Assembly: GCA_021772635.1 (NCBI GenBank)
Contig: JAJFLP010000030.1
Span: forward strand, 1 to 64,000
Direction: 5' to 3'
DNA length: 64,000 bases
Source of the DNA: Verrucomicrobiota bacterium
Lineage (GTDB): Bacteria; Verrucomicrobiota; Lentisphaeria; JABSQK01; JAJFLO01
Shown: piece after piece, positions 26,216 to 36,896 of the stretch
How the letters are laid out: the number at the start of each line of letters is the position of its first letter
Numbering within the stretch: the first letter of the stretch is position 1
The notes under the pieces: generated by a model
Databases searched by the model: none
What the model was told of the DNA's origin: nothing
The model's input: only the letters and a program-made list of their open reading frames with translations
Program-made: the position numbers and the translations under genes

Positions 26216-27715
26216 GTGGCGAATTCATCAATTGACAAATTTATGGCGCTCTACGAAGGAGAAGGCCTAACGTTCGACGACGTGTCGTTGGCGACGCAGT
26301 ATACAGATTTTCCTCCCTCTGAGGCGTCGCTCAAGTCGAAATTCAGTCGTAACATTGATTTAAGTATCCCGTTCGTCAGTGCGGCGATGGACACAGTGAC
26401 GGGTTCGGTAATGGCGATCACCATGGCGTTGTCCGGTGGGATCGGTGTTATCCACCGCAATAACACGCAGGAGGAGCAGGCGGAGGACGTTCGAAAAGTT
26501 AAGAAATATCTGAACGGATTGATAGAGACTCCTGTTGTCTTTAATAGGAAAATCCAGGTTTCTGAGCTCCTCTCGGAGAAAGAGAAGCGCCAGCATAATT
26601 TTTCTGGTTTCCCTATTGTAGACGATGGCGGGATTTTATGCGGAATCATAACTGCGAAGGACATGAAATTTCTGCGGGAAGGTTCGATTCCAGTCGAACA
26701 GGCCATGACGAAGGAGGTGGTTACCGGCGCTGTCGGGACGACCTTGGTCGAGGCCTTCGAAAAGATGCTTGAACACAAGGTGGGCAAGCTACCAATCATA
26801 GACGACGGCGGGTGTCTGCAAGGTCTGTATAGTTTTCACGATGTCAAGAGTTTGATAGAGAATAATGAGCCTGATATAAATCGGGATCAGTACCACAAGC
26901 TTCGGGCCGCGGCAGCGATCGGGCCGGACGATTATGAGCGCGTAGGAGTCCTGGTGGACGCGGGGGTGGATGTTCTTGTCATTGACACCGCGCATGGACA
27001 TACAAAGAACGTAATCTCAATGGTCCGCCACCTGAAAAAGAACCACGCAGAAGTTGACGTGGTCGCGGGGAATATAGGAACCGGCGACGCTGCAGCAGAC
27101 CTAGTTGACGCCGGCGCGGATGCGGTGAAAGTGGGGATCGGCCCGGGATCGATTTGTACGACGCGCGTTGTAACTGGTGTGGGAACTCCTCAATTGACCG
27201 CGGTGTACGATGTATATCGTAAGATTGGCGACGAGGTTCCGATAATAGCCGATGGTGGAATTCGGCATTCCGGGGACGTCCCGAAGGCGATCGCGGTTGG
27301 GGCGACGTCAGTTATGATGGGGTCGGCTCTTGCCGGGACACAGGAAAGCCCGGGGGAGAAGATCCTCCATCAGGGGCGAAAATTCGTCGTATATAGGGGG
27401 ATGGGAAGTCTCGAAGCGATGAAGGTCGGGCGCGGAAGCCGCGACCGTTATTCCCAAGCTGATGTCGTTGCGGAGGAGAAACTTGTGCCACAGGGAATTG
27501 AGGGGCTAGTGCAGTTCCGCGGATCGGTTACCAACGTCTTAACGCAGTACACCGGGGGCTTAAGATTTTCGTTAGGATACTGCGGATCCCGGGATTTCAG
27601 CGAACTACGTAAGACAGCGAAGTTTTATCGAATTTCCTACGCCGGCTTACGAGAGGGGCATGCGCACGAGGTTAAAATAATTAAAGATGCCCCTAATTAT
27701 AGCACCGGTAATTAG
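26216..27715 (+). CDS. guaB: IMP dehydrogenase
   Basis: GLTFDDVSL...[20 protein letters not shown] domains; [17 protein letters not shown]. Confidence 0.97.
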
Positions 27716-28010
27716 CGGTCCTCCGGCAGTGACGTATAATTTGCAGAATCTGCGCGTATCTCTGGAAGTGTCGCGCAAGAAATTTTTGACCGTTTTCCGA
27801 CGGAATCTTTGTTTATACAATAGTTTATTCGGCGTCGCATATAGATTGCAAGGGTGTTGCCGGGAGCACGGCGTGTAGCCGACTTTTCCATCAGTGTTCC
27901 AGATTTGCAAAACGCTTGATTCCGATGAACCGCTTAGTCGTTAGGGACGTTTAGCCACTTGGTCTGTAAGAAAGTCCATTATTTTACGCCAGCCAATAGC
28001 AAAAGAAAGT

Positions 28011-28988
28011 TTGCCATCAATAATGAATATAATTCTTGTCCCAGCCGTCACGATTTTCTTTATATTTTTTGTGACCTCCGTTATCGTCCTCCTCACCTAC
28101 CTACCTCTATGGATCCAGGTCAGAGTCTCAGGAATTGAACTATCAGTTTTCCAATTGATTGGAATGCGATTACGCCGACTCAATCCGAAGTTCGTATGTC
28201 AGCAGCTCATTACTCTCAGCAAGGCAGGAATCGACGTGCCTGTTGACGACTTAGAGGCTCACGTTCTGGCGGGCGGCAATTTATCGGCCGTGGCAGAGGC
28301 ACTTATTGCTTCCGCAAAGGCGGGGCTTGGGTATCCATTTCAGAGGATTGCGGCAATCGACCTGGCCGGCCGCGACGCGGTTGACGCCGTGAGCACTACC
28401 GTGGAGCCCAAAGTACTTGTTTGTCCACCGCATTCAGCGGGAACAATAATGGGTGTTGCAAGAGATGGAGTACGGCTGGCTGTATCGATCAGAGTTACAG
28501 TCAGGACCAATTTTGAACGATTAGTGGGTGGCGCCGGGGAGGAAACGGTGATTGCGAGGGTCGGTGAGGGAATCATTGCCGCCATCGGTTCTGCTGACAC
28601 CCACAAGCGCATCCTGGAGCGACCGGAAGTCATCGCGGAATACATTCTCTCCTGCGGTTTAGACCGCGGGACCTCGTTTGAGATTCTGTCGGTCGACGTT
28701 GCTGAAATCGAAGTGATCGATAATATCGGCGCTCGCTTGCAGAACGTTCAGGCCGAATCCGACAAGCGAGTGGCCCAGGCGAAAGCGGAGATGAGACGAG
28801 TGTCTGCGATTGCGACCGAGCGCGAAATGCGCGCTAAGGTCACGGAAATGACTTCACAACTGACATTCGCCCGATCGATAGTACCGCGAGCGGTGGCTTC
28901 TGGATATCATCGTGGAAACATATGGCGCTCGCCGAATCCCGTGGGCTTGGGCTTCAACCGCTGCCTCTGGGATCCCCTCATTCGTTAG
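28011..28988 (+). CDS. floA: Flotillin-like protein FloA
   Basis: N-terminal TM; GIELSVFQLIGMRLRRLNPKFVCQQLITLSKAGIDVPVDDLEAHVLAGGNL; VDVAEIEVIDNIGARLQNVQAESDKRVAQAKAE; C-terminus less certain. Confidence 0.85.
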   Translation: MPSIMNIILVPAVTIFFIFFVTSVIVLLTYLPLWIQVRVSGIELSVFQLIGMRLRRLNPKFVCQQLITLSKAGIDVPVDDLEAHVLAGGNLSAVAEALIASAKAGLGYPFQRIAAIDLAGRDAVDAVSTTVEPKVLVCPPHSAGTIMGVARDGVRLAVSIRVTVRTNFERLVGGAGEETVIARVGEGIIAAIGSADTHKRILERPEVIAEYILSCGLDRGTSFEILSVDVAEIEVIDNIGARLQNVQAESDKRVAQAKAEMRRVSAIATEREMRAKVTEMTSQLTFARSIVPRAVASGYHRGNIWRSPNPVGLGFNRCLWDPLIR

Positions 28989-29501: not shown

Positions 29502-30230
29502 GTGAAGTTGGGAATTCGATTTCAAATCAATTTGCTTACGTTCTTATGTATTATTGGACCTTCAGTCTTCGCACAATTGCCAGGGGTACAACCTGAGAAC
29601 GTTACGTTCAAGATAACGGAGCTGGAGATCAAGAAGGTGCGACTTCGCGAACTTAGCCCGCGTGTTGAAGGGTTTGCACCGGATAATAAGAGTGAATGGT
29701 ACAGAATTAAGGCCGAGTACACGGTCGGCAGCGGACACAAGAAAGCCGGAGGTTATCGGCGGGACGTGTCATGGGTTGACAGCTGTGTTTTTTCGTGGCG
29801 CGTCATCCTGGCGTTAACGGCCGATGAGCGTAAGAAGGGCGTATCAGAGAAGAACTCACTGTTGTTGGAAAGAGATATACGCTATGCCAACATTGACATA
29901 GATCCGACCAAGACGAAGTCGGCCGTGGTGTATATCGAACCGAGTTTCTCCGATCGTTTTAAATCGAATTTAATTGACGATGGCGTGTTAGTCGAGCTTA
30001 CAATATCAACTGCGGGCAAGGCTAAGGCCCGTGCCTGGGCCCGCGGCGGCAATTTTTATAGTGGGACAAGCCTCCCCGCGCGGTTGTTCCCGAAGTCAGA
30101 GGAAGGCCTGTGGTTCAAGTCGAAGTCGTTGAACCGCGTAGACTATGGCTTGCTCAGCCGGCACGAAACCCCGTGGGCATGGTCGAGTTACGAGGCTTTT
30201 GAATTTATCGTGAATGACAGGAAAAATTAA
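29502..30230 (+). CDS. Secreted protein, Amuc_1102-like position in pilus locus
   Basis: Signal peptide; first gene of a co-directional cluster with PilM-like protein, two membrane proteins and a secretin. Confidence 0.6.
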   Translation: MKLGIRFQINLLTFLCIIGPSVFAQLPGVQPENVTFKITELEIKKVRLRELSPRVEGFAPDNKSEWYRIKAEYTVGSGHKKAGGYRRDVSWVDSCVFSWRVILALTADERKKGVSEKNSLLLERDIRYANIDIDPTKTKSAVVYIEPSFSDRFKSNLIDDGVLVELTISTAGKAKARAWARGGNFYSGTSLPARLFPKSEEGLWFKSKSLNRVDYGLLSRHETPWAWSSYEAFEFIVNDRKN

Positions 30231-30241
30231 CGAGTTAAAAT

Positions 30242-32164
30242 ATGGCCATCCAAGAACGCAGCCTTGCAATTGATATTGGATCGACAGGGATCCGCATAAG
30301 TGAGTTCGAGTATCCTGCGACAGGAGGGATTATTCTTCATGCTTTCAATAAGGTTGAATTAACAGATCAATTGAGCGAAACCAATCGTACTGAGGTCATA
30401 ACGGTAGCCCTGCGTAAAGCATACGAGGACGGGAATTTTACAACGAAAAACGCGTCTATTTCCGTTTCGGGCCAGGCAGCGTTTATGCGTTTCGTAAATT
30501 TGCCGCCTGTATCCGAAGAGGAGTCTCGGATAAAGCAAATTGTCGAGTATGAGGCAAAGCAGAATGTTCCGTTCCCAATGGACGAGGTCATCTGGGATTA
30601 TCAGCTGATATCCGGCGCTGACGAAGACCTTGAGGTTATGTTCGTCGTCATAAAGAACGATATCGTCGAGAGCGTTATTGAGGCGGTTGTAGCGGTTGGA
30701 CTGAAACCCAAACTTGTTGATTTCGCGCCATCAGCACTGTACAACGTTGCAAGGGCAAATCACGTCGGAGACAATGAATGTTGCATGGTCCTGAATATTG
30801 GCGGACGTTGTAGCACGTTATTATTCCTCGATGGCCAGCGATTTTTTGCAAGAACAATTCCTATCGGCGGATTTTCTATCAGCCAGCAAATTGAGAAAGA
30901 GTTCGGAATCAGCTCTCAAGAGGCAGAAACCTTAAAACGTCGTCATGGTTTCGTTGCCCTCGGCGGTGCGTACGAAGAACCTGAATCTGAGGTTGCGGCC
31001 ACGATTTCAAAAATCGTCCGGAACATTATGACGCGCCTTCATGGCGAGGTCAATCGATCGATCAGTGTATACCGCACCCAGCAGAAGGGCAATAAGCCAG
31101 TTCATCTTTACTTGGCCGGCGGTAGTTCGACAATGGCCTTTACCGACCACTTCTTTTCCGAGAAACTGAGACTGGAAGTCAGTTATCTCAATCCGTATAA
31201 GATCGTATCGTTATCGGAGAATTTAGACGTCAAAAAGCTTGAGGAATCGGCTCATTTTTTCGCTGAGACAGTAGGCGTCGGTCTCCGAAACTCTCTGGAA
31301 TGTCCGGTCGAAATTAGCTTAACGACAGATTCGTTGCGCCAGCAGCAGTCGTTTGCGATTCGGAAACCTTTCATCATATTCTCGTGTTTCGTTTGGATGC
31401 TGATCCTGGGCGTTTTTATTTTGGTCAACAACAAGACTGTTGCGTTGTTTCAGACGACTGCCGAGAGGAAAGCTGCCAACGTTGAGCGTTTAAAGAAGAT
31501 TAAAGGACAAATCGAGGTGTTTGAACGAAAGCAGAAGAAGGTCTTTGAAAAATTTGACAGCGTCGCGACCGTGTTGGAGTACAGATATGACTGGGCATTC
31601 TTTTATAATACGCTTCAAGTGGCCAAACCTCAAGATGTGTGGTTGAAGAGTATAAAGATCATGAGCGCCCCAAAAGCTGGTCCAGCTAAAAGAACGGCGA
31701 AGAAAAAGAAAAAACGCGCAAGTCTGTTCGCGTCGAAACGGAAACGAGGTTCGCAATCCGCATCTGAGCAAGATGGCATAATTTGGTTCGATATAGTGGG
31801 GCAGGCGATCGCGATACCAAGTTCTGATCCGGAGCGCCTCATTTTCTCAGAGGAACAGGTGACAGAGTTTGGACGGTTGCAGGCGAACCAGGCTGGAGAC
31901 GGTGCGGAAGAACAGGATACGGACAAGAGTGCCTCCGGTGACAACGGCGCGACTGGCCCGTTGGATTTCCTGGGAACGAATCGAATTGAGTCAGACATGA
32001 TTCTATCCGAGGTATTCCTGAGGAGTCTCCACAATGCCGGATTATTCTCGTCCGATCCAGCCGAAACCCGCATCCTGGAAAGTCGTTTTTCCGACAAATA
32101 CCGAAATCTTACTACTTTTAGAATACAACTGCGCTTGGAAGAGCCGATAGTTACAAAACGCTAA
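30242..32164 (+). CDS. PilM-like actin-fold protein fused to a TM/PilN-like region (Amuc_1101-like)
   Basis: LAIDIGSTGIRISEFEYP...QIVEYEAKQNVPFPMDEVIWDYQLI; C-terminal IIFSCFVWMLILGVFIL TM then coiled coil and PilN-like region. Confidence 0.82.
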   Translation: MAIQERSLAIDIGSTGIRISEFEYPATGGIILHAFNKVELTDQLSETNRTEVITVALRKAYEDGNFTTKNASISVSGQAAFMRFVNLPPVSEEESRIKQIVEYEAKQNVPFPMDEVIWDYQLISGADEDLEVMFVVIKNDIVESVIEAVVAVGLKPKLVDFAPSALYNVARANHVGDNECCMVLNIGGRCSTLLFLDGQRFFARTIPIGGFSISQQIEKEFGISSQEAETLKRRHGFVALGGAYEEPESEVAATISKIVRNIMTRLHGEVNRSISVYRTQQKGNKPVHLYLAGGSSTMAFTDHFFSEKLRLEVSYLNPYKIVSLSENLDVKKLEESAHFFAETVGVGLRNSLECPVEISLTTDSLRQQQSFAIRKPFIIFSCFVWMLILGVFILVNNKTVALFQTTAERKAANVERLKKIKGQIEVFERKQKKVFEKFDSVATVLEYRYDWAFFYNTLQVAKPQDVWLKSIKIMSAPKAGPAKRTAKKKKKRASLFASKRKRGSQSASEQDGIIWFDIVGQAIAIPSSDPERLIFSEEQVTEFGRLQANQAGDGAEEQDTDKSASGDNGATGPLDFLGTNRIESDMILSEVFLRSLHNAGLFSSDPAETRILESRFSDKYRNLTTFRIQLRLEEPIVTKR

Positions 32165-32187
32165 AGGGACGTTTCCCTTCATCGATT

Positions 32188-33018
32188 ATGGAGCTAATAA
32201 AGAAAAACTTATTTCTCGTCATATCCGTGGTAGTGATGATTATACTTTCCGTTATCGCGAGTGTAATTATTCGAAGTTACCACAAGGATATCGACAAATA
32301 TGCAGAGCAGGTCAAGAATATAGTTGAGGCCGAGAAAAGTTTTGTAACGAGTCCTTACGCGCTCACTACCGACAATGTTTTGCAGGTCGAGAAAAATTAC
32401 GAGGGAACGGTTGCTAAGTTCAGGGAGATGATTGACAAGTTGAATGAAAGATACCCGTCGCCCGAGGTCAATTCTGATATGACTCCTTTGAAGTTCAAGT
32501 TGTACTTACGGCAGGTCTGTATAAAAATGGAAAACCTCTTACGTGGTGAAGACGTGGCATTACCAGACAGCTTGAAGTGGTTTTCCTTCGATAGGTATAT
32601 GCAGCCGGATGTGCTTCCGAATAATGAGGAAATAAAATCGATATTAAATCAGTTAGAGATAATCCAGGAATTGATATACATAATCTCACAATCGGAAGTA
32701 AAGAGTTTGGACCGGTTCTCGCGATCGGATGATATCAATTTGACGGAGAGAAAGTTATATGGCTTCATGCCGTTCACGTTGTCATTATCCGGTAACGTGA
32801 ATTCTATCCGGCGTTTTATGAATCTCATTCCCGAGGCGCGATATTTTTATATGGTCCGCAATTTAGATTTGGAGGCGAGCGAGCCGAGAATGAATGACGC
32901 ACCGGACGTGAAGAGAAATAAGTTAACTCCGAAGCACGAACGTTTGCTTTATTCCGCCGAGACGATCGTAAAAGTTGATTTCGTGGTTGACTACTTCGAG
33001 TTCCAGGATAAGGAGTAA
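32188..33018 (+). CDS. Amuc_1100-like pilus-associated membrane protein
   Basis: 276 aa; MELIKKNLFLVISVVVMIILSVIASVIIRSY TM plus periplasmic domain, located between PilM-like and secretin genes. Confidence 0.6.
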   Translation: MELIKKNLFLVISVVVMIILSVIASVIIRSYHKDIDKYAEQVKNIVEAEKSFVTSPYALTTDNVLQVEKNYEGTVAKFREMIDKLNERYPSPEVNSDMTPLKFKLYLRQVCIKMENLLRGEDVALPDSLKWFSFDRYMQPDVLPNNEEIKSILNQLEIIQELIYIISQSEVKSLDRFSRSDDINLTERKLYGFMPFTLSLSGNVNSIRRFMNLIPEARYFYMVRNLDLEASEPRMNDAPDVKRNKLTPKHERLLYSAETIVKVDFVVDYFEFQDKE

Positions 33019-34151
33019 TGGGGTTGAAATTCTTGAAGATAATATGGGGTTTTATTTCCAAGTTCTACGACAAAATAGTACTCGGGATTCTGCTGTTATT
33101 TTTAGCGATCGTCTTAATTTTTCAGACTGATAAACTCAAGGTTACTCAGGAAGAGGTCAATAAGGCGGATCAGGACTTGCAGCGCAAATTGCCCACCAAC
33201 GATATTGAACCGTTGGATCAGGCTCAATTTGAGCTTGATTTTAGTTTGCAACAGGACCGACTCTGGAAAGAAGACTATAGCGAAGGGTCTTTAGTTGAAC
33301 CTGGAAATTACGTTTATAGTATGGATGGTGGACCTTATCTCCTGCATCTAACGACTAGGAAGAGTCCGTTTACTGGTAGTTGGGATTTGCCTGAGGTCCC
33401 GAAAGCGGATGCGGGGCATCCGTCTGCAACGGCGAGTGGCTCCGGCGATATAAACAAAGACTCGGACAACGATGGTCTCCCGGACTTTGTGGAGGCGGAG
33501 GCTGGCCTGAACAAGGACGATCCAAGTGACGCATACACCGATCTTGATGGCGATGGCTTTAACAACTTAGACGAGTATAAGGCAGAAACCGGACTACAAG
33601 ATTCGTCGTCTCGCCCGAAACTAGCGAATAAACTACGGTTCTTGAAGAAGATTCGCACGCCTCTGAATGTCAAACTTAAGAGAGTTAATCGAAATGATGA
33701 TGAGGACAAGAGGAAATGGGACATTGAAATTAAGTACAAATCCGGGAAACGATGGAAGTCTGAATTTTTGAGAATCGGCGGGAGAATACCACAATTGGGG
33801 TATGATCTTATTGACGCTGAATATAAGGAGAACGTAGAGGGCGGTGTTCCTGTGGATGCATCCCAGATAACAATTAAGAAGAACGATGAGCCAGCGGTAA
33901 CGGTTCACCGAAATCGTGTAGCCTATGCTGGCGATGATATCTACGAAATATTGTATTTGGCTGAAAAACCCATAAAATTAAGAACGAAATTGGGGAGAAG
34001 TTTTGTGATTCAGGATTCGAAGGGTGCAGAAGAAACGTATGAACTCAAGGATGCTAGTAACTTGGAGCAGTTAGTCTTTGAACTAACCGCGAGCAAAGAA
34101 ACTTTTACCGTTCGGAAATTCAGTAACGAAGACAAATTGCAAATGAAATAA
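33018..34151 (+). CDS. Amuc_1099-like pilus-locus membrane protein with Ca-binding-type (TSP3-like) repeats
   Basis: TM FISKFYDKIVLGILLLFLAIVLIF; DSDNDGLPDFVEAEAGLNKDDPSDAYTDLDGDGFNNLDEY. Confidence 0.6.
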   Translation: MGLKFLKIIWGFISKFYDKIVLGILLLFLAIVLIFQTDKLKVTQEEVNKADQDLQRKLPTNDIEPLDQAQFELDFSLQQDRLWKEDYSEGSLVEPGNYVYSMDGGPYLLHLTTRKSPFTGSWDLPEVPKADAGHPSATASGSGDINKDSDNDGLPDFVEAEAGLNKDDPSDAYTDLDGDGFNNLDEYKAETGLQDSSSRPKLANKLRFLKKIRTPLNVKLKRVNRNDDEDKRKWDIEIKYKSGKRWKSEFLRIGGRIPQLGYDLIDAEYKENVEGGVPVDASQITIKKNDEPAVTVHRNRVAYAGDDIYEILYLAEKPIKLRTKLGRSFVIQDSKGAEETYELKDASNLEQLVFELTASKETFTVRKFSNEDKLQMK

Positions 34152-34298
34152 TTGAGGGCTGTATTTCTTCAGGCTCAAATCAGTCTTATAGAAATGCATA
34201 CCATTGTAGTATCAGCTATTAATGCTAACATGTAAATTAGTTTTTAGTCAATTGAATCAAGTATTCTATTCGAGACCGAACAACTTCAGGGGGCTGTT

Positions 34299-36896
34299 AT
34301 GATAATAAAGCAAATTAGACGGTTGTCGCTATCATTTTTCGTTGTGACTCTTTTTGCCGTAATGACCAGTTGGGCGCAAGAGGATCAGGGCGGCGTATTC
34401 GAAGAGATCGAAGAGATCCCGGAGCAGAGCTACGAGACATCGGTTACGCCCACCGAAACAAAGAAAGTCAAGAAAGCTGCGATGTCGGATGAAGACGTTA
34501 TGGATCCAAGCCAGATCGACAAGAATGAAGTCGTTCGACGTCGGGAGAAGGAACTAGCGGGAGAGCAGCTTTACACCGAAGGTCGGAAAGCGTTTATTGA
34601 CGGCGACTACGAGTCCGCAGTTCGAAAGTTCATAACCGCGCAGATCAAGTTTAACGAGGTTTCCCGCAGTGAACCGCGGATATTAAAGAAGCAGGAGTTG
34701 GTAGACCAACTTTTGGCGTACACTTACGAGGAGTGGGGTTCACGGCTGGCCAGAGAGGCCCAGCGTCTGTCGGAGCTTGATAAATTCGAGGAGGCGGTTG
34801 AGAAGTTTCAGAAGGTGATCGAGAAGGATCCATCCCGTAAGCAGGAGGTTGATAAGAAGGTTCAGAACTTGCAGCGTGCGATTAAACAGGCGGAGTTTAG
34901 AGAGAAAACGTCTCCCCGGTACGTCGATCCCGAGAAAGCCGTGCGCGACAAGGAAGTCGATGTCAAGTTTCAACAAGGCAAAGTATATTTCGAGAACAAG
35001 CGGTATTCAGATGCTCGTGAAATGTTCGAACAGGTGTTACTTAAGGATCCGTATAATGACCGTGCGACGCGATTGTTGAGGTTGATAAATGAGAAGTTAT
35101 TAGAAGCCGGTAAACAGCGTCGTGAGGTAATGAACGCCGAGCGAATCGCTGAGATTAAGTGGAAGTGGAATGATCCAGTAACGCCGTTGGTTAGTCCGGA
35201 TATCGTTATCGAAGGATCGCAGCCGGTAAAGAAGTTCAGTAGGGCAGGCGAAGGGATCTGGGCAAAACTCGAGAATATTATCATTCCAAAGATTTCCTTT
35301 GAGGAAGCGACAATTCATGCGGTCATTAAGTATTTGAAAACCAGGAGCCGTGAATTAGATCCGGACGGGGAAGGTGTAAACATCTTCTTGCAGTTAGCTG
35401 TCTCTGCGCCGGTCGCGGAAGAGGAGGAGATAGAGGACGACCAAGGATTTGGAGAGGAAGATTTCGAGTTCGAGGAATTGGAAGAAAACGTTGAGTTCGA
35501 AGACGAGGTTGAGGAGGATGCCGGACCTGAATCTTCGAGTCGTTCAGGTAGTGAGTTGACTATAACGATGGACTTCGACAATATACCACTGGGCGAAGCA
35601 ATTCGGTATATTTGTCAGGGGGCGGGATTAAAGTACAAGGTTGAAACGCACGCTGTCATCATCGCCTCGCAGGATATTCCGTTTGATGAAATGGAGACTC
35701 GTTTTTATCCGGTTGAGGCAGGCTTTCTGAGGCAGAAGCCTACACGCGATGCCGGCGAAGGTTTTGATGGTGGTGGCGAAAGCGCCGAAGCAACAGAATT
35801 TGAAGATCCAATAACGATTTTCCAAAATTACGGCGTAGAGTTCCCGCAGGGGGCCAAGATTACTTATGACCAACGGACCAGCAAGTTGATTGCGACGAAC
35901 ACGCCGTCCAATCTGCGGAAGGTAGAGAAGATTCTCGCCGAGTTAAATATTCAGCCTATTCAGGTGACTATTGAGGCAAAGTTCGTCGAGATCTCGCAAA
36001 CGGATTTAGAAGAACTAGGCTTTGAATGGCTATATTTGGGTGATGTAAATCAAATCGACGGATTCAATAATGTCGACTTTAGCGACAATCTACGATTTCA
36101 ACTATTAAAGCAATCAACTGCTCCGGGTGCGAATGACCCGAATCTAAGTGGTGGGTTGAGGTTTTTTACCGACACTGGCGATGCGAACTCCAACGATCGG
36201 GTAATGAGTATAAACAGTATCTTGGGCGACTACCAATTTAATACGATACTACGGGCGCTCGAGCAAAAAGAGAGTTCAGATATTTTGTCTGCGCCGAAGG
36301 TGACCACCATCAGCGGTGAAACTGCTGTGCTGAAAGTCATAGATGAACGGTCGTTTCCCGAGAGTTATACAGAGCCTGAATTACAGGCGGCAACGGCAGC
36401 GGGCGGAGTTTCACAGGGCGCTACAATCAAACCATCCACACCCGAGTTTGGAGATGTCACAGAAGTCGGAGTTATTTTAACGGTAACGCCTACCGTGGCG
36501 TCCGACGGGTATTCTATTGACCTTGATTTGCAACCCGAGGTCGTACAGTTTATCGGATTCGATGACTATAGTTACGAGGTCACTCTTGGCAGTGATACTC
36601 TTAGCGTACCCTTGAGGACTCCGATCCTATCCAAGCGGCAAATTCGGACCAAAGTGATTGTGTGGGACGGTGAAACCGTTGTACTAGGGGGAATGATCAC
36701 TGAGAACATTAAAGAGATCGAAGACCGAATCCCGTTCCTCGGAGATCTGCCCGTCTTTGGGCGCCTGTTCCGTAATCAAGGGCAAAAAAGCGAGAAACGT
36801 AACCTCTTGATCTTCGTGACCGCAAGGCTCGTGAATCCGGCTGGGCTTCCAGTACGAACCGCTGATATCCGGGGTCTTCCAGATTTCAGACGTTAA
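34299..36896 (+). CDS. Secretin, PilQ/GspD type (Amuc_1098-like)
   Basis: Signal peptide, TPR-like N-terminus, secretin core: QVTIEAKFVEISQTDLEELGFEW, ILSAPKVTTISGETAVLKV, VPLRTPILSKRQIRTKVIVWDGETVVLGGMITE...PFLGDLPVFGRLFR. Confidence 0.9.
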   Translation: MIIKQIRRLSLSFFVVTLFAVMTSWAQEDQGGVFEEIEEIPEQSYETSVTPTETKKVKKAAMSDEDVMDPSQIDKNEVVRRREKELAGEQLYTEGRKAFIDGDYESAVRKFITAQIKFNEVSRSEPRILKKQELVDQLLAYTYEEWGSRLAREAQRLSELDKFEEAVEKFQKVIEKDPSRKQEVDKKVQNLQRAIKQAEFREKTSPRYVDPEKAVRDKEVDVKFQQGKVYFENKRYSDAREMFEQVLLKDPYNDRATRLLRLINEKLLEAGKQRREVMNAERIAEIKWKWNDPVTPLVSPDIVIEGSQPVKKFSRAGEGIWAKLENIIIPKISFEEATIHAVIKYLKTRSRELDPDGEGVNIFLQLAVSAPVAEEEEIEDDQGFGEEDFEFEELEENVEFEDEVEEDAGPESSSRSGSELTITMDFDNIPLGEAIRYICQGAGLKYKVETHAVIIASQDIPFDEMETRFYPVEAGFLRQKPTRDAGEGFDGGGESAEATEFEDPITIFQNYGVEFPQGAKITYDQRTSKLIATNTPSNLRKVEKILAELNIQPIQVTIEAKFVEISQTDLEELGFEWLYLGDVNQIDGFNNVDFSDNLRFQLLKQSTAPGANDPNLSGGLRFFTDTGDANSNDRVMSINSILGDYQFNTILRALEQKESSDILSAPKVTTISGETAVLKVIDERSFPESYTEPELQAATAAGGVSQGATIKPSTPEFGDVTEVGVILTVTPTVASDGYSIDLDLQPEVVQFIGFDDYSYEVTLGSDTLSVPLRTPILSKRQIRTKVIVWDGETVVLGGMITENIKEIEDRIPFLGDLPVFGRLFRNQGQKSEKRNLLIFVTARLVNPAGLPVRTADIRGLPDFRR

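Follow-up and report, generated by a model that had tools for sequence, protein, structure and literature searches.

A divergent pilMNOPQ-type locus of the Akkermansia Amuc_1098-1102 kind in a Lentisphaeria genome, and a PilO-like reading of Amuc_1100

Our analysis makes it very probable that the five genes at 29502-36896 specify those components of a type IV pilus machine that span the cell envelope, and that they form a divergent pilMNOPQ operon of the type found in the gut bacterium Akkermansia muciniphila as Amuc_1098-1102. They lie in a window of 64,000 nucleotides, the whole stretch of DNA that was analysed, from a genome (G000) of 3.97 Mb in 130 contigs that is 91% complete. The locus is near-universal in the phylum and has already been described, as the type IV pilus cluster of Akkermansia, MUL2. 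It is useful mainly for re-reading Amuc_1100 as an inner-membrane alignment protein; the points of use are this PilO reading, the fusion of PilM to PilN and the linkage of motor genes to the locus in relatives. The features are as follows.

28011..28988, + strand: floA, a flotillin-like neighbour outside the pilus system (Pfam FloA, 2.3e-106)
29502..30230, + strand: Amuc_1102-like gene (242 aa; NCBIfam NF042424, 2.6e-6)
30242..32164, + strand: PilM-PilN fusion gene, Amuc_1101 family (640 aa; NF045709, 9.4e-135)
32188..33018, + strand: Amuc_1100-like gene in the PilO position (276 aa; NF038287, 4e-15)
33018..34151, + strand: Amuc_1099-like gene in the PilP position (377 aa; NF042425, 1.3e-12)
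33459..33590, + strand: TSP3-type repeat region of the Amuc_1099-like protein (D-x-D-x-D-G motifs)
34299..36896, + strand: secretin gene, PilQ equivalent, Amuc_1098 family (865 aa; NF042912, 7.7e-128)

Family identity and distribution of the locus

An earlier note on this DNA had described five co-directional genes in the order Amuc_1102-1101-1100-1099-1098. The open reading frames are present at the coordinates and on the strand that it gave, and the NCBIfam models match in exactly that order. The note had also proposed a search with the Amuc_1098-1102 families, and all five proteins match, the three small ones included, each at a score below the model's equivalog cut-off (bits against cut-off: Amuc_1102, 27.2/55; Amuc_1101, 450.8/650; Amuc_1100, 56/180; Amuc_1099, 48.0/50; Amuc_1098, 427.7/750). 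Since none of the five window proteins reaches its cut-off, we regard them as divergent homologues within wider families. Pfam on its own detects no more in the locus than PilM_2 (overlapped by an FtsA match), Secretin together with TPR repeats, and a weak TSP3. The first four genes are spaced in operon fashion, with gaps of 11, 23 and -1 bp, and 147 bp precede the secretin gene.

The Amuc arrangement and a classical PilMNOPQ operon had been set against each other in the earlier note, an opposition that does not survive, as the locus is itself best described as a divergent pilM-N/O/(P)/Q operon. It shares with the classical type IVa pilMNOPQ operons of two gammaproteobacterial loci (L129 and L130) the order PilM, PilN, PilO, fourth gene, secretin, with PilM, PilN and the secretin matched by sequence and PilO by fold. 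Unlike these operons, it has PilM and PilN fused, an extra upstream Amuc_1102-like gene, N-terminal TPR repeats on the secretin, and a fourth protein with a membrane helix and TSP3 motifs, for which no homology to PilP could be detected. Families, gene order and orientation are those of Akkermansia muciniphila Amuc_1098-1102, and profiles match the Amuc_1100 and Amuc_1102 structures; the window proteins differ from the Akkermansia set in their sub-cut-off scores and in the length of the 276-aa protein, which is smaller than every one of the 38 relatives measured.

The flanks differ as well. Upstream of the window locus lie guaB (IMPDH) and floA (26216-28988), whereas the neighbours reported in Akkermansiaceae are rho, dephospho-CoA kinase and 3-dehydroquinate dehydratase. 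Among 60 relatives guaB stands upstream of the pilus locus in 23 and floA in 18. The idea of a frameshift in floA was dropped, as the C-terminus of FloA matches that of a close relative.

Because the five-gene order recurs in about 100 loci across the phylum (40 from relatives in the class, 20 from named records and 42 found phylum-wide), the arrangement cannot be attributed to chance; the exceptions are loci cut by contig ends and loci in which the first gene is sometimes too divergent for detection. Among named records, those that encode relatives of the 640-aa protein are for the most part metagenome-assembled genomes of Lentisphaeria, Victivallales and Kiritimatiellota, with rumen, the gut of other animals and further sources given as origin; the genome is placed in Lentisphaeria by inference from these relatives. 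A homologue of the Akkermansia secretin in Lentisphaera araneosa was noted as early as 2016 (PMC4960237). Of 388 genomes from the phylum, 371 match the Amuc_1101 family at some level and 344 do so at E < 1e-20.

This distribution bears on the possibility that the locus specifies a dedicated polysaccharide-binding or uptake apparatus of the MUL2 kind, with the pilus reduced or modified, which would have the same anatomy as a pilus machine and another purpose. MUL2 is tied to mucin use in Akkermansia and to attachment to fucose-rich glycans in marine Akkermansiaceae (PMC13174399). However, strong matches in 344 of the 388 genomes amount to a near-universal presence that argues for a general machine and not a glycan-dedicated one, and no glycan gene stands beside the locus within the 25-42 kb stretch. 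We consider a dedicated apparatus of this kind conceivable but on balance improbable, and favor a general type IV pilus machine. Such a pilus may be used for attachment, for the capture of glycans that has been proposed for MUL2, for motility or for DNA uptake.

Inner-membrane and periplasmic components

Sequence comparison identifies the 640-aa protein as a fusion of PilM and PilN. It comprises a cytoplasmic PilM part (aa 1-350), one transmembrane helix at about aa 377-395 and a periplasmic PilN-like part (aa 396-640). The PilM part matches Pfam PilM_2 at 3.4e-37 (128.6 bits against a cut-off of 27), and the protein scores 133.7 bits on TIGR01175, whose cut-off is 133. The earlier note had called the product a PilM/PilN-like fusion, and this is borne out by a single family profile that covers both separate genes of the two classical operons: it matches pilM of L129 and L130 at 2e-41 and 4e-34, and the separate downstream pilN at 4e-7 and 3e-6, with pilQ also matched further downstream in both. 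The PilN stretch of the profile starts at ISLLP, aligned to INLLP of classical PilN, and the single membrane helix follows. Pfam PilN matches directly in 3 of 30 relatives. Homologues of both PilM and PilN, as expected of a PilMNOPQ complex, are thus found in the one fusion protein.

The 276-aa protein had been proposed to be a relative of Amuc_1100, and the NCBIfam profile, a sequence match to solved structures and the fold all uphold this kinship. A family profile built from relatives matches the Amuc_1100 structures 6lad and 6kny at about 1e-17 (6lad, 7.7e-18); such a profile was needed, since phmmer with the single sequence returned only chance matches in the PDB. The AlphaFold model (pLDDT 88) consists of an N-terminal membrane helix, a long coiled coil, a further helix and a strand-strand-helix-strand-strand, ferredoxin-like domain. 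In the structural comparison with Amuc_1100 that the earlier note had suggested, Foldseek placed the Amuc_1100 structures first (about 1e-11) and PilO next (4e-5 to 3e-4, including 2rjz and 3jc8_Oa: chain Oa of the Myxococcus pilus machine model at 4.4e-5, Pseudomonas PilO at 7.5e-5). Pfam PilO matches 4 of 30 relatives, at best 6.4e-6, so that a PilO homologue of the PilMNOPQ complex is found both by Foldseek and by Pfam in relatives. The gene lies between the pilN part and the secretin gene, in the PilO slot. From sequence and predicted structure, then, this Amuc_1100 relative looks like a PilO-type inner-membrane and periplasmic protein.

A PilO slot in an operon conserved across the phylum, together with a PilO fold, leads us to predict that the Amuc_1100 family is anchored in the inner membrane and faces the periplasm. 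The assignment is not new, as a brief mention in PMC11573778 gives the Amuc_1100 product the name PilO. It does run counter to a literature in which Amuc_1100 is an outer-membrane or pilus-located protein (PMC5332112, PMC10688800), partly on the strength of immunofluorescence. The earlier note had likewise called Amuc_1100 outer-membrane-associated; kinship with Amuc_1100 stands, and we found nothing here in favor of an outer-membrane location. Amuc_1100, a probiotic candidate, is under development as a host-active "outer-membrane" protein, and under the PilO reading its reported surface exposure can be put to a direct test.

The first gene encodes a 242-aa protein with an N-terminal signal peptide. 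Its family profile, built from relatives, matches the Amuc_1102 structure (PDB 7dsz) at 1.8e-21. We can only infer the role of this protein in the machine.

The Amuc_1100-like and Amuc_1102-like proteins might instead be surface or filament parts that face the host or a substrate, in which case the locus would encode a structure and not an assembly machine. Ottman et al. reported that antibodies against Amuc_1100 label the outside of Akkermansia cells and that the protein is enriched in an envelope fraction (PMC5332112), a review cites a location on pili (PMC10688800), and Amuc_1102 has been termed archaeal-pilin-like (PMC13174399). Against this, the 276-aa protein has a PilO fold, an N-terminal membrane helix and the operon position of PilO, and a type IV prepilin motif (class III signal peptide or N-terminal methylation) occurs in 0 of 32 Amuc_1102 relatives. 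We judge surface parts of this kind very unlikely and retain the PilO-like assembly protein as our reading.

The fourth protein, of 377 aa, has an N-terminal transmembrane helix, a TSP3 calcium-binding motif and a C-terminal all-beta region of one or more domains (AlphaFold model, pLDDT 84). Pfam TSP3_bac matches it at 0.0032 and the best relative at 2.3e-7, with 17 of 30 relatives matched, and the Asp columns of the motifs are conserved in an alignment of Amuc_1099 relatives (A2). A PilP homologue of the PilMNOPQ complex was found by none of the methods applied: Pfam PilP matched none of the 30 relatives, Foldseek of the model against the PDB returned nothing at E<=0.001, and hhalign of the family against a two-sequence PilP alignment gave 0.2%. 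With no significant PDB match by Foldseek, we do not claim PilP identity for this protein. Ahead of the TSP3 region, 22 of 30 relatives carry a zinc-ribbon-like CxxC...CxxC motif; cysteine is missing altogether from the window protein, and each of the three relatives closest to it has a single one. We raise, as a speculation that is more likely wrong than right by a wide measure, the idea that PilP has been replaced throughout the phylum by an unrelated inner-membrane-anchored protein, whose TSP3 and mostly also zinc-ribbon-like cysteine motifs would couple the alignment complex to the secretin and make pilus assembly or channel opening metal-dependent, the cysteines having been lost in the family of the window protein.

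Secretin, motor genes and the proposed machine

The 865-aa protein has a signal peptide, N-terminal TPR repeats (TPR_2, 7.1e-11) and a C-terminal secretin domain encoded at 36255-36833 (Pfam Secretin, 2.7e-35; 121.9 bits against a cut-off of 27.5), and provides the secretin of a PilMNOPQ complex. In many relatives a second secretin-family gene, absent from this place in the window, lies directly 3' of the Amuc_1098-like secretin gene (L110, L116, L117, L119-L122, L124, L137, L138, L165).

The genome holds two secretins, that of the window and one on contig C77 that is GspD-like (326.7 bits on TIGR02517) and has GspE adjoining. Since the C77 protein is the sole secretin besides that of the window and is part of a type II system, the window secretin is assigned to the pilus by elimination. 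Within the type II gene run on C77, upstream of gspD, there is an IS3-like transposase pair of HTH_Tnp_1 and rve integrase (L027:3681-4909).

The earlier note had observed that no PilB, PilT, PilC or pilin gene adjoins the locus and had called the cargo of the secretin unclear. The observation holds, and the cargo is largely accounted for, being best explained as a type IV pilus run by motor genes elsewhere. The genome-wide search that the note had suggested found PilB, PilT, PilC, prepilin peptidase and pilin-like genes outside the locus: PilT (463.8 bits against a cut-off of 319.1) is on C17 beside PilC, two PilB-type ATPases are on C116 and C75, and the one prepilin peptidase is on C38. The gene set of a complete type IV pilus is thereby present in the genome, the major pilin not being identified among the pilin-like genes; which pilin is the cargo is something that we infer.

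Motor genes are linked to the locus in some relatives. Two loci (L131 and L132) carry pilB, pilT, pilB and pilC directly upstream of the 1102-1101-1100-1099-1098 run on one strand, L132 with two N-methyl pilin-like genes between pilC and the run, and in L158 pilC lies immediately upstream. From this linkage it can also be told which machine the Akkermansia locus works for. We rejected the hypothesis that a motor gene usually accompanies the locus, as in most relatives none does. Weak PilB/GspE matches near L134, L156 and L172 may be matches to response regulators, one query carrying a REC domain, and are left out of the evidence. Among the 388 genomes, the PilM-PilN family is absent from 12 of the 16 that lack a PilT over the cut-off, versus 32 of the 372 that have one (Fisher 1e-9, uncorrected for kinship, six of the twelve coming from one family).

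A role of the window secretin in protein secretion is highly improbable: it scores on the GspD model (1.6e-52), and a type II system likewise has a secretin and inner-membrane alignment proteins of one superfamily and would share the single prepilin peptidase locus of the genome, but a separate gsp set is present (GspD and GspE on C77, clustered pseudopilins of GspG type on C73, another GspF on C120), the window secretin is not a GspD encoded with GspC, E, F, L and M, and its locus has a PilM_2 match and, in relatives, linkage to pilT and pilC.

Drawing on established type IV pilus biology, we propose the following arrangement. Cytoplasmic PilM is joined covalently, through one membrane helix, to periplasmic PilN, and an alignment complex in the inner membrane would arise when the PilN part pairs with the Amuc_1100-like PilO equivalent. 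With its own anchor in the inner membrane, the Amuc_1099-like protein would bridge this complex to the secretin ring, which would be the outer-membrane exit for the pilus. Extension and retraction of the pilus through the secretin channel would be the work of the PilB and PilT ATPases and the PilC platform, whose genes lie outside the locus. The five sub-cut-off scores, the missing PilP match, the absence of a motor gene next to the locus, the lack of an identified major pilin and the papers that place Amuc_1100 in the outer membrane or on pili count against this pilus reading.

The motor proteins have features of their own. One of the two PilB-type ATPases (L033:7059-9200 and L034:6655-8976, on C116 and C75) has a C-terminal response-regulator receiver domain and the other an N-terminal GAF domain. 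On C34 of the same genome (L032:5061-7268), a 735-aa protein consists of two complete tandem PilT ATPase domains, with two TIGR01420 matches (854.9 bits) and a Walker A motif in each domain, at aa 130 and aa 509. Six further genomes (G009, G015, G018, G054, G178 and G189) have open frames of 734-761 aa under their PilT matches, which suggests that the tandem-PilT fusion recurs in the class.
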